A DNA stretch of 55,042 nt from a virus. Position numbers and translations under genes: made by a program. The notes under the pieces are model-generated. The model was not told where the DNA came from, did no database searches, and saw only the letters and a list, made by a program, of their open reading frames with translations. The stretch is from positions 1 through 55,042 of the IMG/VR virus record IMGVR_UViG_3300046820_000403; one strand, 5' to 3'. This document shows positions 9,698 through 37,062 of this stretch, piece by piece (position 1 is the first letter of the stretch; each line of letters opens with the position of its first letter).

Positions 9698-9994
9698 ATG
9701 GCATCGTTTCAAGACTTTAAAGACAAGGCACTAACTGGCGTGGTAGCATTTGCATTTGGTATGATGTGGTATGATATAAGAGAAATGAAAAACGATCTAA
9801 AGACATTGATCTCACAGACAAGCGAGAGCAGAACAAAGATAGAAGCTTTGGAACGTCAAGTGTATAAAGCCTCTGTAGGATTACATGCACCAGTTCCTCC
9901 ATATAAACTACCTCTACAAGTAGACATGCGTGAAGTGGTAGCTATTGTTAATGAGAATGACCTAACCCCTAAAGAATATGAAACATTTAATTGA
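9698..9994 (+). CDS. Small membrane protein of the lysis region
   Basis: 98 residues. A hydrophobic stretch at about residues 10-24 (LTGVVAFAFGMMWYDI) is followed by a coiled-coil-like segment (EMKNDLKTLISQTSESRTKI) and a Pro-rich tail. It precedes a two-helix membrane protein and an endolysin, so it may be a holin, antiholin or membrane anchor. The ATG at 9698 is used rather than one 36 bp upstream that would add an unlikely hydrophobic leader. The 155 bp before it hold only a weak hairpin (9597-9609) and no clear promoter. Confidence 0.6.
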   Translation: MASFQDFKDKALTGVVAFAFGMMWYDIREMKNDLKTLISQTSESRTKIEALERQVYKASVGLHAPVPPYKLPLQVDMREVVAIVNENDLTPKEYETFN

Positions 9995-10280
9995 GCCTCC
10001 TAAAGAGAACTTCTTTAGTATATTCAAAGATGATAACGATTGGAATGAGAAGTCCATCATTGGATTTATTGCACTTGTTGTTATGTGTATTGTAGTGGCT
10101 GTAGATTTAATTACAGGATACCAAGGTAAAGAGTTAGTGATTAATGATTATGTATTCAATGCGTTTACAATTATTGTACTAGGATGCTTTGGTATTTCTG
10201 GTGCAGAGAACATCATGGGCAAGAAGACTAAAAGTAATGATGGCCTGAATGAGAAACCACTTCCAGAAGATGAAGGATAA
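9978..10280 (+). CDS. Holin-like two-helix membrane protein
   Basis: 100 residues with two hydrophobic helices: about 29-46 (GFIALVVMCIVVAVDLI) and about 60-76 (VFNAFTIIVLGCFGISG), then a charged Lys/Glu tail. Size, two transmembrane segments and a charged C-terminus are as in class II holins, and the endolysin lies three genes downstream. It overlaps both neighbours. A holin role is inferred from topology and context; no family signature was recognised. Confidence 0.55.
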   Translation: MKHLIEPPKENFFSIFKDDNDWNEKSIIGFIALVVMCIVVAVDLITGYQGKELVINDYVFNAFTIIVLGCFGISGAENIMGKKTKSNDGLNEKPLPEDEG

Positions 10281-10890
10281 AATAACAGGATTGATTATTG
10301 TTGGACTTGTAGGCTTTATATTTTTTAATAGAGGTTGCGAGAAAGGATCACAAGCTAAAGGACCTGATACATTAGTTGTACACGATACTACTTGGCAGAT
10401 ACATGATAAGACAATCGTTAAAGAAGTACCTATTCTTAAAGAAATACCAGTACCACACGAAGTACTCATAAAGACGTACCAAGCTGATACTAATTATCCT
10501 GTACTGAAGAAACAATACGAAGAGCTTGCTAAGAAATATGCATCTCGTCGTATCTATAAAGATTCAGTGAAGGTGGGCACACATGGTTATATTGAAGTGG
10601 TAGATACAGTGAGTGAGAACAAGTTGGGCAAGCGCACTACCAAGGATAACTTCAAGATCCCTATTGTAAAGGAAACTATGACAATAACCAAATATGCAGA
10701 ACCAACAAGACAGCTCTATGTGGGCGGTGGTATTAACAACTCTTCCCTTACTAATTTTAGAAGTGTGGAGGCAGGTGTACTATACAAGACAAAGAAAGAT
10801 CAAATCTTTGGAGGAAAAGTAAATGTTAATGTGGATGGGTCTATCACCTACGGTGTACAGTCCTATTGGAAAATCAAAATGAAGAAGTAA
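10270..10890 (+). CDS. Membrane-anchored envelope protein, spanin-like candidate
   Basis: 206 residues. One N-terminal transmembrane helix (ITGLIIVGLVGFIFF, about residues 4-18) is followed by a periplasmic part with beta-rich, charged stretches (TLVVHDTTWQIHDKTIVKEV) and a C-terminal region in which alternating residues suggest beta strands (RQLYVGGGINNSSLTNFRS, VNVNVDGSITYGVQSYW). An inner-membrane anchor with a periplasm-spanning body between holin and endolysin genes fits a spanin or envelope-bridging role. Bacteroidota phages carry similar membrane proteins of unknown function here. The ATG at 10270 is the one nearest the upstream stop. Confidence 0.5.
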   Translation: MKDKITGLIIVGLVGFIFFNRGCEKGSQAKGPDTLVVHDTTWQIHDKTIVKEVPILKEIPVPHEVLIKTYQADTNYPVLKKQYEELAKKYASRRIYKDSVKVGTHGYIEVVDTVSENKLGKRTTKDNFKIPIVKETMTITKYAEPTRQLYVGGGINNSSLTNFRSVEAGVLYKTKKDQIFGGKVNVNVDGSITYGVQSYWKIKMKK

Positions 10891-11018: not shown

Positions 11019-11903
11019 ATGTCAACATTGCGTAGAGGTGATGAAGGTCCGCTGGTAACCAAGCTCCAAGAGAAGCTAGGGGTGGATCCTATTGGTAAGT
11101 TTGGACCTAAGACAGAGACTGCTCTTAAAGAATGGCAAACTGCTAATGGTCTACAAGCTGACGGTATAGCTGGTCCTTTTACACTAGCTAAGCTAGGTAT
11201 TGAGGCTCTTCCTCAAGCTCCTGTAATAACACTTCCAAATATTACTTCATCTACACATACAGCTGTAGTACCAAACCCCGTAGCTGTTCCTGATAACTCA
11301 GGATTCAAACTAGATAAACTTAAAGGACATATTCCTGATGCAGTGATTGCACAGATACCTGATACAGCTGCAAGGTTTAACATCACTAATGCACTACGCC
11401 TGGCCCACTTCTTGTCACAATGTGGACATGAGAGTGGTAGCTGGAAAGCTGTACGTGAGAACTTAAACTATTCAGCTAAGGGACTGATGGGAATCTTCAA
11501 GAAGTATTTCCCTACAGCAACATTAGCTACAGCATATGAAAGACAACCTGAAAAAATTGCTAACCGTGTGTACGCTAGTCGTATGGGTAATGGCAACGAG
11601 AACTCTGGAGATGGATATAAGTTTAGAGGACGGGGATATATCCAACTAACAGGTAAAGAAAACTACACAAGATTTGACGCTACAGTTCCTGAAAGTATTG
11701 TGAACGATCCTGATCTTGTAGCTACAAAGTATCCACTAGCGTCTGCTGCATTCTTCTTTAATAGCAATAAGCTATGGGCTATATGTGACAAAGGTGCTAC
11801 GCCTGAAGTAGTGACAGCTGTAACCAAACGAGTTAATGGTGGAACCATTGGCTTAGCAGACCGTGTAAAACATTTTAATGAATATTATAAACTACTAGTA
11901 TAA
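11019..11903 (+). CDS. Endolysin: PG-binding domain plus GH19-type muramidase/chitinase
   Basis: 294 residues. Residues 1-60 are a PG_binding_1 domain (LRRGDEGPLVTKLQEKLG, GKFGPKTETALKEWQ, DGIAGPFTL). A Pro-rich linker leads to a GH19-type catalytic domain from about residue 95, with the candidate catalytic Glu138 in SQCGHESGSW and the family block YKFRGRGYIQLTGKENY at about 200-216. There is no signal peptide, so it needs the holin for export. It should cut the glycan backbone of peptidoglycan during lysis. Very secure on domain evidence. Confidence 0.95.
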   Translation: MSTLRRGDEGPLVTKLQEKLGVDPIGKFGPKTETALKEWQTANGLQADGIAGPFTLAKLGIEALPQAPVITLPNITSSTHTAVVPNPVAVPDNSGFKLDKLKGHIPDAVIAQIPDTAARFNITNALRLAHFLSQCGHESGSWKAVRENLNYSAKGLMGIFKKYFPTATLATAYERQPEKIANRVYASRMGNGNENSGDGYKFRGRGYIQLTGKENYTRFDATVPESIVNDPDLVATKYPLASAAFFFNSNKLWAICDKGATPEVVTAVTKRVNGGTIGLADRVKHFNEYYKLLV

Positions 11904-12065: not shown

Positions 12066-12581
12066 ATGAAACTATTCAAAATCACCTATGCAATTGTCTC
12101 GATGATTGTAGGATCATCAATGATGATTCAAGCTGTATACATCTACAGACATTTCTTTCCTACAGAACCAATCACTGTAGCTTCTGTAGAGAACAAGATA
12201 GTGATAGGTCAATTAGCAGGCAGTCGTAATCTTGCATTTGGTGTGAAGAACATCACAGAAGAATTCTTGCAAGAGCAAGGATATGAAGTGACAGATGATT
12301 CACACAAGAAGATAAAGATAGAACTTCTATACCTAGATGTATTAAAGACACAAGCAAGCTTGTCTGTATTCCATCGTAACTCAGATGCTGTAGTGATACG
12401 CATGAGAGGACAGCTTATAGAAGATGATAAAGTTAAAAAGACTGCAGTGGTAGAAGAGTCTGCAAAAGAAGTATCAATGGCTACCGTGGTTATAGACCAG
12501 GGTGGTAAGTTTAATCAAACCAACCTTAGTACAGCTTTAAAAAAATCATGTAACACTCTAATAACTAAGCTCTTGAAATGA
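12066..12581 (+). CDS. Membrane-anchored periplasmic protein, CsgG-like fold candidate
   Basis: 171 residues. An N-terminal hydrophobic anchor or uncleaved signal (about 5-30) is followed by an alpha/beta domain: LAFGVKNITEEFLQEQGYEV, then IELLYLDVLKTQASLSVF, DAVVIRMRGQLIEDDK and an end of NLSTALKKSCNTLITKLLK. The first and last blocks parallel those of the CsgG-like protein at 15018, suggesting the same fold. The start follows the leader AAACCAAACCACT right after the lysis terminator. It is the first gene of a seven-gene envelope operon. Function unknown. Confidence 0.55.
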   Translation: MKLFKITYAIVSMIVGSSMMIQAVYIYRHFFPTEPITVASVENKIVIGQLAGSRNLAFGVKNITEEFLQEQGYEVTDDSHKKIKIELLYLDVLKTQASLSVFHRNSDAVVIRMRGQLIEDDKVKKTAVVEESAKEVSMATVVIDQGGKFNQTNLSTALKKSCNTLITKLLK

Positions 12582-14302
12582 AAAAACTACTGCTTCTAGT
12601 TCTAACCCTAATAACATTTAATACTCTTGCTCAGGACGTCAAGTTAAAACTTGGTTCTGATTCAACTAAAGTTGATATTAATGGTGGAGTGATTGATAAA
12701 GGAGATGACTTTATTGTTCCTGTACTATTAAACGGTAATGCAAACACGACAGCTCGTGCTTTGTATTTTGATTTCGAATTCAATAATGCCGCATTCACAT
12801 TCGTTAGTGTAAATCATACAGGAACAGGTGGTAATGGTGGTGTGCTTCCTCCAGGTGCATCTATTACGATGACTAACTATACGTATCCTGGATACTCATT
12901 TGCAACTAACGCAAACAACACAACTACAAATGGTAATGCTAACTACAATGCTGCAGCGTACAATTATACACAAGGTGGTCCTAAGACTATCATTCGTGTG
13001 TATTTAAACTGGGCAACTAATAGTCCTCTACCATATAACAACTATAGTACATTATTGAATCTACGATTCACATTGAAGGCTAATGCTGTAGGAGATTCTT
13101 GGGATCCAATCAAGATGAACTTTGCCGCTGTGTTCAATGCAAACGGTGGTAGTGGATCTACACTAATGGAGATTCCTCTCACAACAGTGATTACACAGAA
13201 CCCTGATGCTAAGAAGTATGTAAAGGCTAATGTAGACCTAGGTGCTAACATTAATCCTGCTTACATGAAGGTAGCATTCCTTAAGCAAGATAATACAGGA
13301 CCATTGTTTAATGTTACATCTACAGGTGCTGTAAACATTGTTGACTCTTTACTTACAGCTAATACACAGTATAGGATAATGGCAATGTATAACATGGATC
13401 AGTTATACAACTTATATAATGCTGCTGTCACGGTCTCTGACTATACATCTGCACAGGCAGAGTTTATATCTCAGAACCTAGATGGTACATTTAAGAACAC
13501 AACAATTGTTACTGGTGCAGGATATAAAGCAGCTGATGTCAATCGTAATGATAAACTAGATGGTGGTGACCTTGTTAAACTATTTGCTCAGGCAGTGAAT
13601 GTTAATCAACTAGTAGTGCTACCTACAGGATACACAGTTGGATCTAATGGACATATGAGTTTGATGACATTTAAAGGAGCTACATTTGATGCTGCTACTC
13701 CTGCTGATTGGGCTACGTTGTTCCCAGGTAATACACAGCCTGTTTATACATTCACTACGCCACCTACGCCAGGTACGCCATCTACTATTACTATCAAGTA
13801 TTTAATTGATGGAGACATTAATCGTTCTATGTCATCTAACGTTGTACGAAGTGGTAGTGTTGTAGCAAATAGAACATTGGCTAAGAACAATGTAACAGTT
13901 AACTTAAAGAACACTGTAGTTACATCTAACAAGGTGGACATCCCCGTAGCTATTAATACTAATGGAGAGAATGTATCTGGACTACAGTTCCAGTTTGAAT
14001 ATGATAAGACAAAGATTAAGTTTGAGGAGTTAGTTAATGAGATGCCTAATACATGGTATGTGTTTGCTAACAATGCAGACGGTATAATTAAGTTTGGCGC
14101 AGTGGATAAGGATCTGAAGACTCCTATATCAGGACAATCAATTCCTTTCAAAGTGAGATTCTCCACTCTACAGAATGGATTGGACATCAACACTTACATC
14201 AAGGTGAGCCCTATTATGGACGCAGCTTCTAAAGATGGTTCACAGTTGGGGATTGACTTGAGTACAGATGTAATCAAGCTTACAGGATACAATAACTTTT
14301 AA
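12578..14302 (+). CDS. Secreted cohesin/dockerin-type protein
   Basis: 574 residues. The signal peptide MKKLLLLVLTLITFNTLAQ ends in an AQ cleavage site usual for Bacteroidota. Residues about 40-205 form a beta-sandwich resembling a cohesin-type domain (FIVPVLLNGN, LYFDFEFNNAAFTFVSV). A dockerin-like calcium loop is at 320-331 (DVNRNDKLDGGD). A second cohesin-like sandwich occupies about 430-555 (VDIPVAINTNGENVSGLQFQ, then GIIKFGAVDK). Cohesins and dockerins normally pair to assemble extracellular complexes; having both in one chain suggests self-assembly or surface attachment. ATGA overlap with the previous gene. Assignments are from motif recognition. Confidence 0.6.
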   Translation: MKKLLLLVLTLITFNTLAQDVKLKLGSDSTKVDINGGVIDKGDDFIVPVLLNGNANTTARALYFDFEFNNAAFTFVSVNHTGTGGNGGVLPPGASITMTNYTYPGYSFATNANNTTTNGNANYNAAAYNYTQGGPKTIIRVYLNWATNSPLPYNNYSTLLNLRFTLKANAVGDSWDPIKMNFAAVFNANGGSGSTLMEIPLTTVITQNPDAKKYVKANVDLGANINPAYMKVAFLKQDNTGPLFNVTSTGAVNIVDSLLTANTQYRIMAMYNMDQLYNLYNAAVTVSDYTSAQAEFISQNLDGTFKNTTIVTGAGYKAADVNRNDKLDGGDLVKLFAQAVNVNQLVVLPTGYTVGSNGHMSLMTFKGATFDAATPADWATLFPGNTQPVYTFTTPPTPGTPSTITIKYLIDGDINRSMSSNVVRSGSVVANRTLAKNNVTVNLKNTVVTSNKVDIPVAINTNGENVSGLQFQFEYDKTKIKFEELVNEMPNTWYVFANNADGIIKFGAVDKDLKTPISGQSIPFKVRFSTLQNGLDINTYIKVSPIMDAASKDGSQLGIDLSTDVIKLTGYNNF

Positions 14303-14315
14303 CCTAGTTCTTATA

Positions 14316-14672
14316 ATGAAAAAATTAATCATATTTGCATCTTTATTTCTTACAGCATGTGCTGACGTAGAGTTACCTGCCCCAGAGATAAACTTAGGTG
14401 TTGCACCTACAAACAAAACAGATATCCTTAGTGTAGTTACACAAGGAACAAAAGCTACAGTGATGTACAATGTTACTGTAGGCGCTAAGTATTCTGTACA
14501 AGTGTATGAGTTTGGTAAGACAGATCCTACTAAAACTCTACCACTAACTGCAGAAGAAACCATCACCACTAAGGTGTATGAGTTTACAGATTTACAAGAT
14601 GGTATATATGACATCATCCTTACAGATGTATCAGGTGTATCAGTTAAGAAACCTTTAGTAATTAAACGTTAA
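14316..14672 (+). CDS. Small lipoprotein
   Basis: 118 residues. KKLIIFASLFLTAC is a lipoprotein signal with lipobox LTAC, so Cys17 should be lipidated. The mature part is predicted to be all beta (TKATVMYNVTVGAKYSVQVY, TTKVYEFTDLQDGIYDIIL) and ends VKKPLVIKR, the pattern of a small fibronectin/Ig-like domain. Thirteen bp separate it from the secreted protein upstream. Probably anchored in the outer membrane beside the other proteins of this operon. No specific family recognised. Confidence 0.65.
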   Translation: MKKLIIFASLFLTACADVELPAPEINLGVAPTNKTDILSVVTQGTKATVMYNVTVGAKYSVQVYEFGKTDPTKTLPLTAEETITTKVYEFTDLQDGIYDIILTDVSGVSVKKPLVIKR

Positions 14673-14677
14673 ATAAT

Positions 14678-14989
14678 ATGTCAGAAGAATCAAATGATGG
14701 TACTTGGTCAGGATTGGTCAAGACTATAGTCGGAACAGTAGGAACTATTGTAACAGCTGGTGGTGCATATCTAGGCTCACAGATGTTTGGTGGTGGAGAT
14801 GAGAAGGCTGAGACTGCACAACCTGCAGCTGTAACAGCTCCTGCTCCAGTGATTAACATCACTACTAACAATCAACAAAATGCTAACTCTGCTGGTGGTA
14901 AGACTGTTATTATCAAGGAGAAAGCTGCTCCTGTTAAGCCTAAGGCTAAGACAGCTAAAGAGGAACTTGAAGAAGCTCCTAAGTGGTAA
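14678..14989 (+). CDS. Small membrane protein with Ala/Lys-rich tail
   Basis: 103 residues. After a short polar start there is one transmembrane segment (LVKTIVGTVGTIVTAGGAYL, about 12-31), then QMFGGGDEKAETAQPAAVTA, an Asn/Thr-rich strand (VINITTNNQQN) and a Lys/Ala/Glu tail. The tail composition is typical of periplasmic spacers. It begins 5 bp after the lipoprotein stop. It may hold part of the envelope complex in the inner membrane; function unknown. Confidence 0.55.
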   Translation: MSEESNDGTWSGLVKTIVGTVGTIVTAGGAYLGSQMFGGGDEKAETAQPAAVTAPAPVINITTNNQQNANSAGGKTVIIKEKAAPVKPKAKTAKEELEEAPKW

Positions 14990-15017
14990 CCAAACCCCCT
15001 TTTAATGAGAAAACTAT

Positions 15018-15740
15018 ATGAAGAGATTAAGCTTATTATTCAGTTTATTGTTGAGTGTGTTACTAACGTACAACAGTAGTGCACAGATTGCTACAACTAA
15101 GACAGAAGCTTACACAGCTTCATTTGAAAAGAAGATTAACATAGACTCATTGATGGACTATGATGGTCCTAAGATACCTATACAATTGTTGTCACTAGGT
15201 ATTAATGAAGAAGTGTATGCTTCCTATCCAGAGCTCAAGGATAAACGAGTGGGACTAGGTGTCACGAATATAGTTGTAGAATACTTAGAAGAGACCAATA
15301 GGTTCACCTTCACTGAAGATAAGGCTGAGATAAAGAACAGGATGGTAAAACAATTCCAAGCGTCTCAGTCTGGTATTACACAAGATAAGCTTGATGGTAG
15401 AGGGAAAATAAGATTGGCCCACTACTTTGTGTATATTGAGGTATATGATTTTTCTGTTTCTGAAGACGAATCTGTATCTTTAAAAGATGGTGTTAAACAA
15501 ACTGTAGTTACGAGACTGGGGCTACAGGTAAAATTTGTTAACGCTGAGACTGGTGAATACTTCACTGGTTCTGGTCTAGGTGAAGCTAAGACTACTAGAG
15601 AAGCCACCATGATGAATGATGGTAACTTTGCTGAGGTTAAGTTTAACCAAAGCACAATTGGAACCACTACAAAGAAAGCTCTTGAAACAGCTAGTAGTAA
15701 AATCATTGTGCGCATGATTAAAAAGAAACTGTTTAAATAA
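15018..15740 (+). CDS. CsgG-like outer-membrane secretion protein
   Basis: 240 residues with an N-terminal signal (KRLSLLFSLLLSVLLTYNSS). The mature part has the CsgG order: LGVTNIVVEYLEETNRFTF, HYFVYIEVYDFSV, VVTRLGLQVKFVNAETGEYF and FTGSGLGEAKTTREATMM, ending in a helical segment. The strand pattern V.....F.V...TGE..... and the later K.T. stretch fit the curli secretion pore family, which forms ring channels in the outer membrane. No Cys lipobox is seen, unlike bacterial CsgG. It sits between a membrane protein and a coiled-coil protein in the same operon. Confidence 0.6.
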   Translation: MKRLSLLFSLLLSVLLTYNSSAQIATTKTEAYTASFEKKINIDSLMDYDGPKIPIQLLSLGINEEVYASYPELKDKRVGLGVTNIVVEYLEETNRFTFTEDKAEIKNRMVKQFQASQSGITQDKLDGRGKIRLAHYFVYIEVYDFSVSEDESVSLKDGVKQTVVTRLGLQVKFVNAETGEYFTGSGLGEAKTTREATMMNDGNFAEVKFNQSTIGTTTKKALETASSKIIVRMIKKKLFK

Positions 15741-15748
15741 AACCAATT

Positions 15749-16087
15749 ATGTTAGAGAAACTAATTATTGCAGGATCGATAGCACTAGCACTGTCAGTGT
15801 ACCCAGCTATCAAGATTTATAAAGGAGCATCTATTCCTATGTATCAAACAAAGATTACAAAGTTTGAACGTAAGATTCAGGAGATCAAGATTCTTGAACA
15901 AGACCCAGCTACACGCTATGTAAAGATTACACGTCTAGAAGGTAAGATTGTTAAACTACGTGAGAAGATTGTAGAGCGTGATAGAGTACAAAGGTTACGT
16001 GCTAAGTGGGATTATCAAGATGAGATATTGAGACTTAAGCGTAAACATGTAGTTATAGATAGTACAATAAAGATTGAACTTAAATAA
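15749..16087 (+). CDS. Inner-membrane-anchored coiled-coil protein
   Basis: 112 residues. An N-terminal membrane segment (LIIAGSIALALSVYPAI, about 5-21) is followed by long charged helices with heptad spacing (KITKFERKIQEIKILEQD, ITRLEGKIVKLREKIVERDR). The start follows AAACCAATT, and the stop overlaps the next ATG (TAATG). A periplasmic coiled coil next to a CsgG-like protein could bridge membranes or gate a channel. No family recognised. Confidence 0.55.
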   Translation: MLEKLIIAGSIALALSVYPAIKIYKGASIPMYQTKITKFERKIQEIKILEQDPATRYVKITRLEGKIVKLREKIVERDRVQRLRAKWDYQDEILRLKRKHVVIDSTIKIELK

Positions 16088-17268
16088 TGAAAAAACTTTT
16101 GTTGATCCTGTTCCTGATTGGAACAAGTTTCCTTACAAAGGGACAGGTATTAACACAAGTGTATGTAGATCCCTGTTCAGGCAAGGTGCTTACAGTGACT
16201 GTTCCTTTAAACAATGGGACAGTTACAATCGTTTATAGAGGTATGTCAAAGGTTGTAACAGCTGATGACATAACCTCAGGAGCTTTGACAGCTTGGATAA
16301 CAATGGTGAACACTACACCATGTCCTGCAGCACAACAAGCTACAACATTAGTGGTGACACAAGCTGTAGCACAAGCCACTCAAGCTGCTACACAAGCCGC
16401 TACACAGGCTGCAACAGCAGCGGCCACTCAAGCAGCTACTTCTGCAGCAACTTCGAGTGCTACATCAAGTGCTACAGCAGCAGCAACCACTGCAGCTAGT
16501 TCAGCAGTGAGTACACCTGCGCCAGCTCCAACATCTTCATCATCAACTTCCTCAGGCGGTGGTGGAGAAACTAAATCAGAAACCAAAACAGAAACCAATG
16601 AGTCTAAATCCGACAGTAAAGAGGAAACTAAGAGTGAATCCAAATCAGAGAAAAAGAGTGAAGAGAAAAAAAGTAGTTCTAATAAGGCTGCTGCGAGACT
16701 TAACCCCATTATTTATAGTAGTGATCTTACTCTTGCTGGCGCAGACATTAGTGGCATCTCTGCTATCATATCGTTAGGTATGTCTCAGAGTTCTCTTATG
16801 GGGAACGTGAGTTGGGGAGTTACATCTATGATATGGAGTACGTTTAATCAGTTTGCCCTATCTGCTAGGTATACTAAGATGGGTAAGAGTATAATGAACT
16901 TTGGCCTAACAGGTGTTTACTTACAAGGTACATATGTAGAGTTTGCTACAGCTGCTGTTATAAGACCCTTAGGTAAATATGGAGTGACAGGTTTCAACTA
17001 CGCATTGACATACACTGACCAGCTTGGTCATGGACTTATGACGTTCTATACAAAGCCCATCACCTTTAGTAAACGTCTCACTATATCACCAGACATATAC
17101 CTATCAAACTCTCTTACAAAGGATATAGGAGTGTTAACAGGAGCTAGCTTTGATATAGCTCTTACTAAAAGGTTCAAGTTTAACTTTGGACTAAAGACAG
17201 GATTCAACACAAATCCTGACGTTCCAATGATGTACATGTCTATGATAGGTACAAAGATCAATCTCTAA
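16087..17268 (+). CDS. Secreted barrel-like protein with Ala-rich and charged low-complexity neck
   Basis: 393 residues. The signal peptide MKKLLLILFLIGTSFLTKGQ is followed by a small domain with two Cys (VDPCSG, NTTPCPA). Residues about 95-150 are an Ala/Thr/Gln/Ser repeat (QAATQAATQAATAAATQAAT), then a Ser/Glu/Lys-rich stretch to about 200. The C-terminal 190 residues have alternating beta strands ending VPMMYMSMIGTKINL, as expected of an outer-membrane beta-barrel. The Ala repeat resembles trimeric stalk neck regions. Last gene of the operon, with a hairpin at its stop. Confidence 0.55.
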   Translation: MKKLLLILFLIGTSFLTKGQVLTQVYVDPCSGKVLTVTVPLNNGTVTIVYRGMSKVVTADDITSGALTAWITMVNTTPCPAAQQATTLVVTQAVAQATQAATQAATQAATAAATQAATSAATSSATSSATAAATTAASSAVSTPAPAPTSSSSTSSGGGGETKSETKTETNESKSDSKEETKSESKSEKKSEEKKSSSNKAAARLNPIIYSSDLTLAGADISGISAIISLGMSQSSLMGNVSWGVTSMIWSTFNQFALSARYTKMGKSIMNFGLTGVYLQGTYVEFATAAVIRPLGKYGVTGFNYALTYTDQLGHGLMTFYTKPITFSKRLTISPDIYLSNSLTKDIGVLTGASFDIALTKRFKFNFGLKTGFNTNPDVPMMYMSMIGTKINL

Positions 17269-17347: not shown

Positions 17348-17355
17348 TATATTTG
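17348..17355 (+). promoter_or_regulatory. Candidate promoter -7 element TATATTTG
   Basis: TATATTTG matches the Bacteroidota TAnnTTTG element exactly and lies 18 bp before the ATG of the collagen-like gene. No TTG is present at the 20-nt spacing; a TTTG sits only 12 nt upstream. It lies in the longest gap of this part of the + strand. Confidence 0.4.
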
Positions 17356-17373
17356 TTAATTAATGCATACACT

Positions 17374-18558
17374 ATGCCTACATTCATAAAAGCTGGCTTC
17401 TGGGAAGAAACATGTAAGACATGTAAAGGGTACAACGGATGGTTGAACCTTGATCAATTCATGGGAGGCACTGGCACTAGTGGCACTTCAGGTATCACAG
17501 GTACAGCAGGTACTAGTGGTGGATCAGGAACTGCAGGTTCGTCTGGTACCACAGGATTAAGTGGTAGCTCAGGATCCTCAGGACGTAGTGGCACGTCTGG
17601 ATTGTCTGGAGATAGATACTTCAGTACGTTATCTACATCATTTACATTAGGAACAACTACATCATTAACTATTGGAACAGGACTAGCTTATAGCCCTGCT
17701 CAAGATGTTATCATCTCTTACGATGTTAATAATCATGAGATATGTACAGTGGTTAGTTATAACCCTGCCACGGGTGCCATGGTTATTGGACCTCCAATCA
17801 CTGTTGTTGGTTCAGGTACATACACTGGTATGACTATTAACCTTAACGGTGCGGCTGGTGGAGATGGTAGTTCTGGTACCTCAGGTTCCGCAGGAACTAG
17901 TGGAGCTGGCACAGCAGGAACTTCAGGTGCAGCTGGTACTTCTGGCTCAGCTGGAACCTCAGGAGCTAATGGCTCTTCAGGGATTTCTGGAACCTCAGGT
18001 GTATCAGGTTCATCAGGAACTAGTCCTATCCTTCCTTTACCTGTAGTGTATGGACTATATGCTCAAACAGCTAATAGTGCCACCGTTACTAATACTACTG
18101 CAGAAACAACTATAATTGGTACTGGCGTAGGTTCATTAAGTGTACCTGCTAATGGGTTTGCTGTTGGTGATTCTTTTAGAGGAATTCTAGGAGGTATTAT
18201 AAATGCTGGAAATAATCAAACTATAAGAATTAGACTTAGAACAGGGTCTGTTCTTCTTTTAGATAGTGGTTTACAAAATCTTGGAAGTGCTGTTACAGAT
18301 GATGTATGGTCTTTGAATGTTGATTTTACAGTTAGACAAATTGGAACTGCTGGTGTAGCATCTATTGTATCATTAGGATCATTTCATTACACAAAAACTA
18401 ACAACGCTTCTGTTCAAGGATTTGGATTTAATGTAGTAAACAATACAACGTTTAACACTACAGTGAGTAACACATTAGATGTAACAGTTGAATGGGGAGC
18501 TGCTAGTACAGAAAACAATATTTACAGCGACACATTTGTATTGAATAAGATATATTAA
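17374..18558 (+). CDS. Collagen-like repeat structural protein
   Basis: 394 residues. A short N-terminal head with two CxxC-like Cys (ETCKTCKGYNGWLNLDQF) leads into two collagen-like blocks of Gly-x-Ser/Thr/Ala triplets, about residues 37-87 and 165-215 (GTSGTSGITGTAGTSGGSG). They flank a beta domain, and a C-terminal beta domain of about 180 residues follows. Ser/Thr-rich, proline-poor triplets are typical of phage collagen-like fibres that trimerise and project from the virion. A glycosyltransferase lies two genes downstream, so glycosylation is plausible. A start 21 bp upstream is possible but lies in the candidate promoter. Confidence 0.8.
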   Translation: MPTFIKAGFWEETCKTCKGYNGWLNLDQFMGGTGTSGTSGITGTAGTSGGSGTAGSSGTTGLSGSSGSSGRSGTSGLSGDRYFSTLSTSFTLGTTTSLTIGTGLAYSPAQDVIISYDVNNHEICTVVSYNPATGAMVIGPPITVVGSGTYTGMTINLNGAAGGDGSSGTSGSAGTSGAGTAGTSGAAGTSGSAGTSGANGSSGISGTSGVSGSSGTSPILPLPVVYGLYAQTANSATVTNTTAETTIIGTGVGSLSVPANGFAVGDSFRGILGGIINAGNNQTIRIRLRTGSVLLLDSGLQNLGSAVTDDVWSLNVDFTVRQIGTAGVASIVSLGSFHYTKTNNASVQGFGFNVVNNTTFNTTVSNTLDVTVEWGAASTENNIYSDTFVLNKIY

Positions 18559-19780: not shown

Positions 19781-20203
19781 ATGGCTAATCAGAGAAATCT
19801 TAAAGCATTTGTCCGCTTCGATGGAAGTGGAAGGATTGTCGCAGGCAGTCTTATTCTGAGAAAGAACAAGCCCAAAGTAGGTAGATGGCAAGAGATTCCA
19901 GCATACGAATGCTGTAATGACGTTCCTACAGTGTTGACAGACACTATCCCAGGAGAGTTTCCTTTAACTTATATTTCTGTTAGGATACTCTGTGATGAAT
20001 CTAATTCAGAAACAGTATATACAAGTGAAGATGCTGCTACAATGGAAGAGTTAATTGCCCTTCTAAACAGTAACACAGAGCTTAGGGCATTTGGAACATA
20101 TGTTGCACTTAATGAAACTACTGTGCAACTAACTGTACCTTTATCAGTAAAGAACGCATTGTGTCCTAACGGAGTATTATCATTTAACATTTTTGAAGAC
20201 TAA
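19781..20203 (+). CDS. Small virion-type protein with shared N-terminal domain
   Basis: 140 residues. The first 45 (LKAFVRFDGSGRIVAGSLIL, then KPKVGRWQEIPAYECC) recur nearly identically in the next gene. Here they are followed by a separate 90-residue alpha/beta domain (TYISVRILCDESNSETVYT, ATMEELIALLNSNTELRAF) in place of a Thr tail. The pair looks like a duplicated attachment head carrying different tails. Placement among fibre genes suggests a virion protein; no named family recognised. Confidence 0.65.
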   Translation: MANQRNLKAFVRFDGSGRIVAGSLILRKNKPKVGRWQEIPAYECCNDVPTVLTDTIPGEFPLTYISVRILCDESNSETVYTSEDAATMEELIALLNSNTELRAFGTYVALNETTVQLTVPLSVKNALCPNGVLSFNIFED

Positions 20204-20205
20204 TC

Positions 20206-20451
20206 ATGGGACAGCAACTAAATACAAAACTTAAAGCATTCGTTCGTTTTGATGGAACAGGACGTGTAATACCTGGTAGCTTAATCTTACAGAGATTTAA
20301 GCCTAAGGTAGGTAATTGGCAAGAGATCAATGCTACAGAATGTTGCAGTGATATTACTACCACTACAACAACAACAACAGCTCCTGCAACTACGACTACT
20401 ACAACTACTGCAACACCTGTTACTACCACAACTACTACAACTATAGTATAA
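20206..20451 (+). CDS. Small protein with shared head and poly-Thr tail
   Basis: 81 residues. The head (LKAFVRFDGTGRVIPGSLIL, KPKVGNWQEINATECC) duplicates that of the previous gene; from residue 48 it is almost entirely Thr with single Ala, Pro and Val interruptions, encoded by ACA/ACT/ACC runs. The changing third bases show that the Thr run is kept at protein level and is not only a simple DNA repeat. Such a tail suits dense O-glycosylation by the nearby transferase. Its stop overlaps the next ATG. Confidence 0.65.
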   Translation: MGQQLNTKLKAFVRFDGTGRVIPGSLILQRFKPKVGNWQEINATECCSDITTTTTTTTAPATTTTTTTATPVTTTTTTTIV

Positions 20452-33259: not shown

Positions 33260-34726
33260 TTAGATATTCTTAACTCTTGCAGAAATAATAAACTGCATTC
33301 TAGAAAGATTGCTAACAATGTTATCCACCTCTTCCATAGAAACGGTAGGGAAGTTAACAGAATACTTCTTAGCTTCTGCTGTGAATCCTTCTACTACCTT
33401 CTCCTTAAGACCTAACATCTCCTTGATGGTAAACTCTTCATCAAGCTCAAGAGTATCAAAGTCTAGATCATGAAGAAGTTTTGTAGCCTCCTCACGAGGA
33501 ACAGTCATGATAGGAAGATACTCCCAACATCTACCCTTGCTCTCACCAATACCAACAACCTTCATTGGATTGATTAACACAAGAACAGACTGATCGCCAC
33601 AGCCTACATAATGAATCTCATCAGATGTGAAGTGCAAACCTTCTGCACCACAATCGTCTGTATTCCAACGACATTTAGCAGGATCCATGTGTACCACTTG
33701 TCCAATACGAATGTCGAATGTCTGAGTGTGAGCATCTGTAAAACGATTCTCCTCACGATTAGGTAGATCAAGATAAAGATCTGTTAAGTGACCAACGAAT
33801 TCACCGTGTTCTTTCTCAACAACATCATTGTATCCACCTTCTCCATCACATGTTGGGCATCCGCAATCCTCGTCATCACAATCCTCACCATAGCAATAAC
33901 TACACTCTACCCACTCCTCAGTTGTCAAATCGTCCTCATGTACAATCTTGTACTGACCGTTCTCTAGATATACATCATAGTCATTTGGACTCTTCTTCCA
34001 TACAGCTTTCACTTTGTTGTAAGACTCACTGACAAACTGTACAAACTCTGTACCACCATGGATGGTAACAACATTACGAAGAGCTGTGAAGAATCCCTGC
34101 TTGGTAATCTTAAAGCTATTCTTCTTCAGGAAGTTGAATAACTTATCAGCTACCTCAGCACGTGGATTCAAGCAGCACCACATCCAGAAGTTGTATAGAG
34201 CTGTGAAGTTATCATCATGGTCTAAGCTCACTAATGGATTGTGTCTAGATATAACCAACAAGAATTCCTCTACTAATAATGGAGGAAGACTACGATTGAT
34301 ACCTTTAACATACACAGAACCATCACGCACTTCGAAGTAATCAGGATGAGCCGCAAGCTTCTTAGCACCTTCTGCCAAAGCTTTCATCTTCTCAATCTCT
34401 TCTTCTTTCTTGCGCTTGTCATCATACACCTCTGCTACCATACAGATAGCAAACAATTCTGTCTCGCTCTTAGCAGTACGTGCTCTTTGGAAATCATCAG
34501 CTGTAGCAGGATGCTTGCTGATAATGTTCCCATCGTTTAGCACAACAGTTAGAACGTCGTTAACAAACTTGATGTTTGAATACGGCTTAAGTAGAAATGT
34601 ACTACTAGTGTTACTAGACGTAGTAGTAAGGGTGTACCCTGGAGCTGTTGTGTCTTTTAACAACATCTCTGCAATCTTTGTGTCTCTCTCAATCAGAGAC
34701 TTGAAGAACTCTAAACTTGTGTTCAT
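33260..34726 (-). CDS. rIIB-like protein
   Basis: 488 residues. The rIIB order is visible: a beta N-terminal part with NDVLTVVLNDGNIISKH, an ADDFQRARTAKSETELFAI helix, GSVYVKGINRSLPPLLVEEF, then FTALYNFWMWCCLNPRAEVA and FFTALRNVVTI. Residues about 283-305 hold an unusual Cys cluster (CSYCYGEDCDDEDCGCPTCD), reminiscent of a DnaJ zinc finger. It lies directly downstream of the rIIA-like gene, as in T4. In T4 these proteins affect lysis inhibition and resistance to Rex exclusion. Confidence 0.7.
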   Translation of the reverse strand: MNTSLEFFKSLIERDTKIAEMLLKDTTAPGYTLTTTSSNTSSTFLLKPYSNIKFVNDVLTVVLNDGNIISKHPATADDFQRARTAKSETELFAICMVAEVYDDKRKKEEEIEKMKALAEGAKKLAAHPDYFEVRDGSVYVKGINRSLPPLLVEEFLLVISRHNPLVSLDHDDNFTALYNFWMWCCLNPRAEVADKLFNFLKKNSFKITKQGFFTALRNVVTIHGGTEFVQFVSESYNKVKAVWKKSPNDYDVYLENGQYKIVHEDDLTTEEWVECSYCYGEDCDDEDCGCPTCDGEGGYNDVVEKEHGEFVGHLTDLYLDLPNREENRFTDAHTQTFDIRIGQVVHMDPAKCRWNTDDCGAEGLHFTSDEIHYVGCGDQSVLVLINPMKVVGIGESKGRCWEYLPIMTVPREEATKLLHDLDFDTLELDEEFTIKEMLGLKEKVVEGFTAEAKKYSVNFPTVSMEEVDNIVSNLSRMQFIISARVKNI

Positions 34727-34737
34727 TTTGTGATTGT

Positions 34738-37062
34738 TTATACTATTTTATAATTACTAAGATTCATACGCATATTCTTGTAACGACACATATCTTTTAA
34801 GACATCCATCATTGCATTGTTGTGCAACACTTGGCCAGAATAACCTGTCATCGTACTACAGATCTTGTTAATGAAAGGATGTTTAGATAACAGCTTCTCC
34901 ACACGAGAGAGCTTTGTAAACATCTCTAAGTCATAAAGATTGTACTTAGCGGCATGTTCTTCTAGCTTAAGCTCTTTACCAGTAGCTTCACCTTTTGCCC
35001 ATGTCCAGTTTCTAAACTCATAGTATGCAGCCAGATCATTTAGATCATCACTCAATTGTTCAGACAAGCCTGATAATCCTTTACGACAATTGAATGTGTT
35101 TCTATAAACTTCCCTTACACGCCCTATCAACAAAGCTGTCATCATTCTCTTGAATGGTTTGTTATGACCCTTCAGGAATGTATCTAGAGGCATGAAGTTA
35201 TGAAGTTCATACATCTCCAACACCTTAATCTCTCTATCAGACATGACAACAAATACTATCTCATTCTCTACCTTCTTGAATAAACCAAATAGATAGTCAA
35301 GCTTAGCACGATCTTCTTCCTTACCGTATACAGTGAGCATCTTTCTCTTGTGAAGAAGTTTACCATCATACACTGTAGGAACAAACTTAGCGTTAAAGCC
35401 TGTATCTCTTTCTGGAGATGTAGCTTGCTTAACATTAACATCACCCTTCTCCTTCACCTTACCATTCTTGGCAGCTTTAGGTTTAGGCTTGTAGTTCTTA
35501 AGCTTGTCTGCAACAATCCATGCTTCAGGAACATCAATAGCATCTAAGTCTACAAATCCTTTAGTGAGTCCAGCTTGCAATGTTTGGAACTCTGTAATGA
35601 TAGCTCTCCACTGTGCTTTAGGATAATGATACAACTTTAACAAGTCATGATAACAGCGCATGTCTGGATTACTAAATACACTATTAGTTGTCCAGTCTTT
35701 ACTCTTAGAGAACAATGTAAAAGGTTTACTCTTTCTAATGAACTTGACACTCTGTCCTTTCCATAGCTCCTTGATGTAACGACGCTTGCGATCAGGGAAT
35801 GATCCTTCGTACACTGCTAGCTTGGTGTTACGATTTATATTACTTAACCTAACATCCTGGTCCCAGTGACTCTTACACTCAGACATTCTACCTCTGTAGC
35901 TACTTAGTTCATACTTACCCTCATATTCGTTAAGTAAATAGTCTCTAAGCTTGTACACTTGCTCTGCTGTGAAATACTTAGAGTTAAGAAGCGTAGGTGT
36001 GCGCTGTGGTACACTAGCAAACTTCAATATGTCAGATATCTCCCACTGGTCACCTTTGTGATCTTTGATATGTTTGTTATGATTAGAATAATAATCAATC
36101 ACAGCACGTACATTATCTGTATCTACAATAGTTGCATTATACTTAACCATCAAGTCATTAGCAATCAGCTCAATCTTATTCTTGATGAGTTGCTTAGCTT
36201 CCTGTGTATATCGTAATGACTCACGATTAGGCGTAGGAAATAAACCATCTGTCAAGCTGAAGCGTAAACCTATACCAACAGATAGACGCTTGTATGAGTT
36301 ACCTGATTTATCTGTAAGGCCAAGCTTGTCTAGTTCTAATGGATAATAAACATTGTCTAGACAAACATGTATATAGCTGTCAGTACAAAGCTCTGATACC
36401 TGATAATGTTCAGCACGATGTATCTTGAATTTGTTATCAATACCTTCTACATTGAAATACACGTTCTCAAAATACGCTAACTGTTCCTTAATCTTGTTGG
36501 TAAAGTCATAACGGTCACCGTATTTAACAGGGATCATGATCTTAACACCATTGCGTTCAGATGTTGGTTTCTCATATAGCAAATCTATGGAGTTGGTTTC
36601 TTCGCCCTCATACATCATATACTTCCTTTCCATGCCATCTTTGCGACATGTAAAATAGAAACTGGAAGCATATGCAAGTGGAGCCTTGAACCCTAAGCCC
36701 ATCATACCAAGCTCAGTTGTACTGTTACGCTTGGTTGACTTACCATACTTACTGATGATATTTGCAACATCATCTGAGTCTAAACCTATCCCGAAATCCT
36801 CTACTGTGAATTCCCACGAGCTAGACCCTCCGCTCTGTTGCAAACCTACAATGATGGGATCTGATATCCCTGCTCTACGGTGACTGTCAAGAGCATTACT
36901 AGCACATTCCCTAACGGTAGAACCGATAGCGTCTGAATATAAACTTTTACTCAACATCTGCATCAACACCTGTGCACTGTCCAAGTCTAAGGACATTTCT
37001 ACAGTGTCGCAAGATGCTCCATCTTGATAAATTAATGATTGTGTTTGTTTTTCTAAGATCAT
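34738..37062 (-). CDS. rIIA-like GHKL ATPase
   Basis: 774 residues. The N-terminal Bergerat (GHKL) ATPase fold is clear: N box STVRECASNALDSHR (Glu52, Asn56), G1 box VEDFGIGLD (Asp89, Gly91, Gly93) and G2 box ELGMMGLGFKAPLAY. The transducer-like region follows, and the long C-terminal half has a Lys-rich linker (KLKNYKPKPKAAKNGKVKEK). T4 rIIA has this ATPase; the adjacent rIIB-like gene supports the call. A membrane-associated role in lysis timing or exclusion is known for the family; ATP use is inferred from motifs. Confidence 0.8.
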   Translation of the reverse strand: MILEKQTQSLIYQDGASCDTVEMSLDLDSAQVLMQMLSKSLYSDAIGSTVRECASNALDSHRRAGISDPIIVGLQQSGGSSSWEFTVEDFGIGLDSDDVANIISKYGKSTKRNSTTELGMMGLGFKAPLAYASSFYFTCRKDGMERKYMMYEGEETNSIDLLYEKPTSERNGVKIMIPVKYGDRYDFTNKIKEQLAYFENVYFNVEGIDNKFKIHRAEHYQVSELCTDSYIHVCLDNVYYPLELDKLGLTDKSGNSYKRLSVGIGLRFSLTDGLFPTPNRESLRYTQEAKQLIKNKIELIANDLMVKYNATIVDTDNVRAVIDYYSNHNKHIKDHKGDQWEISDILKFASVPQRTPTLLNSKYFTAEQVYKLRDYLLNEYEGKYELSSYRGRMSECKSHWDQDVRLSNINRNTKLAVYEGSFPDRKRRYIKELWKGQSVKFIRKSKPFTLFSKSKDWTTNSVFSNPDMRCYHDLLKLYHYPKAQWRAIITEFQTLQAGLTKGFVDLDAIDVPEAWIVADKLKNYKPKPKAAKNGKVKEKGDVNVKQATSPERDTGFNAKFVPTVYDGKLLHKRKMLTVYGKEEDRAKLDYLFGLFKKVENEIVFVVMSDREIKVLEMYELHNFMPLDTFLKGHNKPFKRMMTALLIGRVREVYRNTFNCRKGLSGLSEQLSDDLNDLAAYYEFRNWTWAKGEATGKELKLEEHAAKYNLYDLEMFTKLSRVEKLLSKHPFINKICSTMTGYSGQVLHNNAMMDVLKDMCRYKNMRMNLSNYKIV

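Follow-up and report, generated by a model that had tools for sequence, protein, structure and literature searches.

A conserved phage gene module, predicted to lie in the cell envelope, in which a type IX secretion sorting domain alternates with a small lipoprotein

The IMG/VR virus record IMGVR_UViG_3300046820_000403 is 55,042 bases long, and this whole stretch of DNA, here called the window, carries a module of seven consecutive plus-strand genes at 12066-17268. Five of them, encoding YajG-like, cohesin, small membrane, CsgG-like, and barrel proteins, form a core shared by more than 100 IMG/VR loci and by immuto, a cultured phage of Flavobacterium. The strongest functional clue, which an earlier note on this DNA missed, is that the cohesin protein of a large share of these viruses, immuto among them, ends in a sorting domain of the type IX secretion system (T9SS), while in others a lipoprotein gene is found instead. 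The explanation we favor, and in which our confidence is evenly balanced, is that the products make up an envelope-spanning module that alters how infected cells present themselves on the outside, with the cohesin protein on display. The seven genes and the domains discussed below are as follows.

12066..12581, plus strand: YajG-like protein, 171 aa, with an N-terminal membrane anchor (PF03923, E 2.4e-4, below the cut-off)
12578..14302, plus strand: secreted cohesin protein, 574 aa, with a signal peptide, an N-terminal cohesin-like part, an EF-hand-like loop, and a C-terminal cohesin
13535..13570, plus strand: dockerin-like EF-hand loop of the cohesin protein, DVNRNDKLDGGD, residues 320-331, with D320, N322, and D331 nearly invariant
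13928..14200, plus strand: C-terminal cohesin domain of the same protein, residues 451-541 (best Pfam stretch)
14316..14672, plus strand: lipoprotein, 118 aa, lipobox Cys15, with a mature part that resembles a T9SS type A sorting domain
14678..14989, plus strand: small membrane protein, 103 aa, a core gene kept in 105 of the 106 loci with a CsgG-like gene
15018..15740, plus strand: exported protein of CsgG fold, 240 aa, with a signal peptide and no lipobox (structure match)
15749..16087, plus strand: membrane-anchored coiled coil, 112 aa, accessory, in 18 loci only
16087..17268, plus strand: outer-membrane barrel protein, 393 aa, with a signal peptide (alignment, AlphaFold2 model, Foldseek)
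16708..17265, plus strand: predicted 12-stranded barrel domain of that protein, residues 208-393 (AlphaFold2 model, Foldseek)

The T9SS type A sorting domain TIGR04183 lies at the C terminus of the cohesin protein in 10 of 27 aligned members, and the related search with PF18962 gives scores above the cut-off for the cohesin proteins of loci L067, L044, and L109 and for gp015 of immuto. Genomes whose cohesin protein is without a sorting domain have the lipoprotein gene directly after the cohesin gene. Members of the lipoprotein family match PF18962 by themselves in 11 of 30 cases (best E 5.9e-5), and hhalign pairs the family with the sorting-domain tails of the phages (Prob 88, E 3e-6). How strict is this alternation? 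Among the loci of the first set with complete cohesin genes, 20 have the tail and no lipoprotein, about 80 have the lipoprotein and no tail, and none has both. Loci fetched later add 33 of the former kind and 1 of the latter, with no exception. Mapped on a tree built from the CsgG-like protein, tail and lipoprotein have changed places three times, and supported branches force at least two of these changes. Following the lipid-bearing cysteine, the lipoprotein family mostly has a polar residue at +2 and acidic residues at +3 and +5, which resembles the surface-export consensus SDDFE of Flavobacterium johnsoniae lipoproteins (PMC5080379).

Because tail and lipoprotein are mutually exclusive and the tail is a T9SS sorting domain, the infected cell most likely carries the cohesin protein on its surface. 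The lipoprotein would then do the work of the tail, as a lipid-anchored substitute for the sorting domain, and the cohesin protein may be expected at the cell surface in the window's branch too. Several points weigh against this account. The window's own lipoprotein has no match to the sorting-domain model, and its cohesin protein, with no match to TIGR04183 or PF18962, is one of those without a tail. The later loci were retrieved with tail-bearing queries. Phages that traded entire cassettes could also have produced the mutual exclusion; even so, the strict pairing of tail and lipoprotein would still need a functional reason. Finally, the tight linkage of the module to holin and endolysin genes suits a role in lysis equally well.

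The cohesin protein matches PF00963 at 33.4 bits, against a Pfam cut-off of 24.1, in two stretches, which bears out the cohesin domains that had been proposed for it. It had also been credited with a dockerin-like calcium loop. One conserved EF-hand-like loop is indeed present, but there is no dockerin domain by Pfam even at E<=1, and the loop is single where a dockerin would have two repeats. In immuto (L107, 11598-13422), the cohesin protein is apparently split into two adjoining genes, of which gp014 matches the cohesin-family profile and gp015 is a cohesin with the T9SS tail.

The CsgG-like gene is the most conserved of the module, at 53-87% identity. Sequence comparison does not connect its product to CsgG: none of 25 homologues matches Pfam CsgG (PF03783), a sequence search of the PDB gives no match, and hhalign of the family against Escherichia coli CsgG finds nothing beyond one short motif. 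Structure does. In an AlphaFold2 model built from 24 homologues (pLDDT 72, pTM 0.58; immuto sequences were left out of structure prediction), the 25 best Foldseek matches in the PDB are all CsgG (E 3e-8, prob 1.00), at a TM-score of about 0.5 and a root mean square deviation near 7, and the best viral structure match is a phage CsgG. The model thus makes the CsgG fold clear, by structure alone and not by sequence. The earlier note went further and spoke of a CsgG-like pore, which the results do not bear out. A lipidated N-terminal cysteine is absent from the window's protein, and the lipobox pattern is absent from 24 of 25 homologues. A long hairpin (residues 136-175) sits where CsgG has its first transmembrane hairpin and bears a nearly invariant acidic motif, S148-E151; in the region of the second CsgG hairpin, the model is short and unstructured. 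Pfam also recognizes none of the curli partners CsgA, CsgB, CsgE, and CsgF among the other six products of the window. As neither a match to Pfam CsgG nor a lipobox nor any curli partner was found, the name "CsgG pore" is unwarranted.

The YajG-like protein is probably a distant paralogue of the CsgG-like protein, to judge from profile searches. Its iterated profile picks up all 106 CsgG-like open reading frames (ORFs), and it reaches those of the newly fetched loci at E values of about 1e-4 to 1e-5. Since this profile runs into the CsgG-like family, the module would contain two remotely related proteins of one fold class.

The last gene of the module encodes what by the model is an outer-membrane barrel of 12 strands, borne on a stalk in the periplasm. 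Its predicted order is a small N-terminal domain whose two cysteines (C30 and C79) are invariant in the alignment, an Ala-rich helix, a disordered, charged linker, and the barrel, much as the proposed barrel-like protein with an Ala-repeat neck had it. KdgM, NanC, and FapF are the best Foldseek matches. No plug is seen in the barrel of the model, in which residues 101-203 are of low confidence. The small membrane protein has an acidic N terminus, one hydrophobic segment, and a Pro/Ala/Asn-rich tail ending in KEELEEAPKW. The coiled coil is present where the earlier note had placed it, but it was rejected as a core part, as just 18 loci of close relatives have it.

All seven ORFs are present as the earlier note had placed them, closely packed, with spacings between neighbors that range from -4 (an overlap) to +28 bp. 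Chance ORFs are ruled out, as over 100 loci have retained these genes. The statement that all seven products carry export signals or anchors holds in a wider sense. Signal peptides with AQ or GQ ends are seen on the cohesin, CsgG-like, and barrel proteins, and N-terminal hydrophobic anchors on the YajG-like protein and the coiled coil; the 14316 product has the lipobox cysteine that was claimed for it. The hydrophobic segment of the small membrane protein, however, is internal, and there is no signal peptide. A count of hydrophobic N termini proved crude and non-discriminating (870 of 1912 in the control) and was not used. Matches to Bacteroidota promoter motifs, tried as operon boundaries, were mostly intragenic and therefore uninformative.

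How widespread is the module? The loci were fetched from IMG/VR with CsgG-like and cohesin queries; they contain 77 distinct CsgG-like proteins, and some are two views of one contig. Almost every locus of sufficient length retains the genes for the cohesin, small membrane, CsgG-like, and barrel proteins, and 35 additional loci show the same conservation. The position of the YajG-like gene varies, being either 5' of the cohesin gene or 3' of the barrel gene. The carriers appear to be related viruses of Bacteroidota, mostly aquatic relatives of Flavobacterium phages, and the named phages with the nearest module are the Baltic Sea immuto phages of Flavobacterium sp. LMO8. Genes gp014-gp019 of immuto (NC_055915) are the same module, with the cohesin parts, a small protein, a CsgG-like protein (56% identity), a barrel, and a YajG-like protein. 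Unlike the window, immuto has a cohesin protein that is split in two and T9SS tailed, and no lipoprotein gene. Apart from a cohesin annotation, its module genes were deposited as hypothetical proteins. Bacterial genome contigs gave only two matches, both in metagenome-assembled genomes (MAGs; 12.6 and 254 kb). A bacterial origin of these close relatives was rejected, both contigs being probably phage. The larger (L109, CAIWBA010000291, 254 kb, from a Bacteroidetes MAG bin) has the module with a T9SS-tailed cohesin protein and is probably a large phage. Structure prediction and these conserved neighborhoods together back the idea of an outer-envelope module, and the search of other phages for the gene set turned up the core repeatedly. 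The chief outcome that, by the earlier note, would have refuted the idea did not come about for the CsgG fold and the cohesin.

What might such a module do? We suppose that it is expressed late in the infection of a Bacteroidota host and that its products would assemble into one complex that traverses the envelope of that cell. The inner membrane would hold the small membrane protein and, in the window's branch, the YajG-like protein; the anchor of the coiled coil is also predicted there. Within the periplasm, the CsgG-fold protein would make up a ring or collar. The outer membrane would hold the FapF-like barrel, its stalk and two-cysteine N-terminal domain extending into the periplasm. In the immuto branch, the cohesin protein would be exported by the host T9SS by way of its C-terminal sorting domain; in the window's branch, it would reach the surface together with the lipoprotein that bears the sorting-domain look-alike. 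Once displayed, it most likely masks receptors, against superinfection and the loss of progeny virions, or mediates adhesion. Any of the three roles put forward in the earlier note (a surface fiber, a block to superinfection, or an opening of the outer membrane at lysis) may apply; for the cohesin part, we favor surface display.

The surroundings of the module in the window bear on the alternatives. On its 5' side lie a putative holin gene, a gene for a membrane-anchored protein, and an endolysin gene:

9978..10280, plus strand: putative holin, its role assigned from size, membrane segment, and place
11019..11903, plus strand: endolysin with peptidoglycan-binding and GH19 domains (PF01471, E 9e-12; PF00182; phrog_181, E 3e-65)

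The membrane-anchored protein between them (10249-10890) occurs in 54 loci of the window's branch and is a spanin candidate. A collagen-like fiber gene with GTSG-type repeats (17353-18558, PF01391) lies immediately 3' of the module. Farther right, the window has UvsX-like and DNA polymerase genes, and RIIA-like and RIIB-like genes adjoin each other at 33260-37062. Two adjoining small paralogous genes lie at 19781-20451, the second ending in a long Thr-rich simple-repeat tract; length-variable tail parts are a possible role for them.

Could the module serve lysis? The CsgG-fold ring and the barrel would then open or destabilize the outer membrane at the close of infection, in a role comparable to that of spanins, and the cohesin protein would belong to this machine as its surface component. 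Linkage to lysis genes and the precedent of methylophage Melnitz, for whose CsgGF genes a lysis role was earlier proposed (PMC9004378), make this the main rival. Of the 70 loci that extend at least 5 kb to either side of the module, 63 have an endolysin gene no more than 6 kb away from it and 51 have a holin gene; in 14, the holin gene is immediately 5' of the CsgG-like gene. The order of the lysis genes varies among the 70, and they are sometimes interposed among the module genes. Such linkage may, however, reflect late expression alone. A T9SS tail on the cohesin protein would be unnecessary for lysis, the window's branch has its separate spanin candidate, and in immuto the module has nuclease and replication genes for neighbors, and about 6 kb separate its end from the annotated endolysin. 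We consider lysis unlikely as the function of the module. A secretion machine, in which the CsgG-fold protein and the barrel would be an outer-membrane channel for the cohesin protein or a fiber in the manner of curli or Fap, would draw on the CsgG fold and on the FapF-like 12-stranded barrel with its periplasmic stalk. No CsgA-, CsgB-, CsgE-, CsgF-, or FapC-like gene is recognized in the module, however, and the lipobox is absent. Acidic residues are nearly invariant in the hairpin at the place of CsgG insertion, and tailed cohesin proteins should take the route of the host T9SS. This makes a channel quite improbable.

Are the products, then, ordinary parts of the virion? The module does lie just 5' of tail-fiber genes in the window and in several relatives. 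Sec signal peptides, a lipobox, an outer-membrane barrel, and T9SS domains would, however, withdraw the proteins from the cytoplasm, where virions are assembled, and a tail or fiber role is very improbable indeed. We return to the displayed cohesin protein as our preferred account. A bolder version of it, to which we allow somewhat less than an even chance, is an undescribed trans-envelope machine, present across a broad range of Bacteroidota phages, whose T9SS sorting domain can be either covalently attached or supplied as a separate lipoprotein, the two forms being interchangeable and a secretion tag having turned into a docking subunit or the reverse.

The relatives add some variable neighbors. 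In the tail-bearing branch, these include signal-peptide proteins with Lectin_C, Laminin_G_3, or GEVED domains. Non-specific DNA/RNA endonucleases (PF01223) with signal peptides lie in or adjoin the module in L047 (9538-10152) and in immuto (L107, NC_055915; 9935-10513) and, from their sequences, would be exported phage nucleases. An extra 139-aa signal-peptide protein, small and outer-membrane-like, is encoded between the CsgG-like and endolysin genes in L057 (10655-11074) and L108 (10658-11077) and is confined to one sub-branch. Another sub-branch has, immediately 3' of the barrel gene, a tail-fiber-like ORF of about 1700 aa with no signal peptide (L012, 11860-17028; also L013, L016, and L019).

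Parts of this picture have precedents. Phage CsgG and CsgF genes have been published from pelagimyophages and methylophage Melnitz (PMC7029224, PMC9004378). There, as here, a phage protein of CsgG fold belongs to a conserved gene group, and roles in adhesion and lysis were proposed. Unlike that set, the module has no CsgF that could be found and no lipobox, its sequence lies beyond the reach of Pfam CsgG, its hosts are Bacteroidota, and cohesin, lipoprotein or T9SS-tail, and barrel genes are joined on. A curli gene set is also known in a marine Bacteroidetes virus (PMC7198788). Cryophage encodes T9SS cargo as variable accessories (endoglucanase, GH39, PA14); these carry type A sorting domains and presumably depend on the host T9SS, as would the proteins described here (PMC7468147). 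Here, in contrast, a single conserved cohesin protein is part of a fixed module, and the lipoprotein replaces the tail in some lineages. FapF, the transporter of Pseudomonas functional amyloid, has its N terminus in the periplasm (PMC5557850). The barrel protein shares with it, in predicted architecture only, a 12-stranded outer-membrane barrel, an N-terminal periplasmic helix (of low confidence), and a disordered linker; it differs in having about 10% identity, no plug that was found, and another N-terminal domain, with two cysteines. Partners of the Fap operon or amyloid subunit genes are not among the seven module genes by Pfam.

The lipoprotein, too, has a possible parallel. Llp of phage T5, a small lipoprotein made by the phage, resides in the envelope of infected cells and brings about superinfection exclusion. 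The window's lipoprotein would be like Llp and Cor in being small, phage encoded, and placed in that envelope, and it has a weak match to Cor (phrog_1119, E 0.0013, residues 1-61 only). This match spans the signal peptide and the first part of the protein, whose mature part, unlike Llp and Cor, resembles a T9SS sorting domain; as it covers in part a signal peptide, it is a mere lead.

A literature search, with most subscription journals outside its reach, found no paper that combines phage CsgG with T9SS cargo or describes an exchange of tail and lipoprotein. What looks new is the conserved combination of genes and the exchange; phage CsgG and phage T9SS cargo had each been described already. 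If our account is true, many Bacteroidota phages spend five to seven conserved genes on rebuilding the outer envelope of the host by way of the secretion system of its phylum. The exchange of fused and split sorting domains would, moreover, be an unusual natural experiment on what the T9SS domain does after secretion, and the cultured pair of immuto and Flavobacterium sp. LMO8 makes the module experimentally accessible now.

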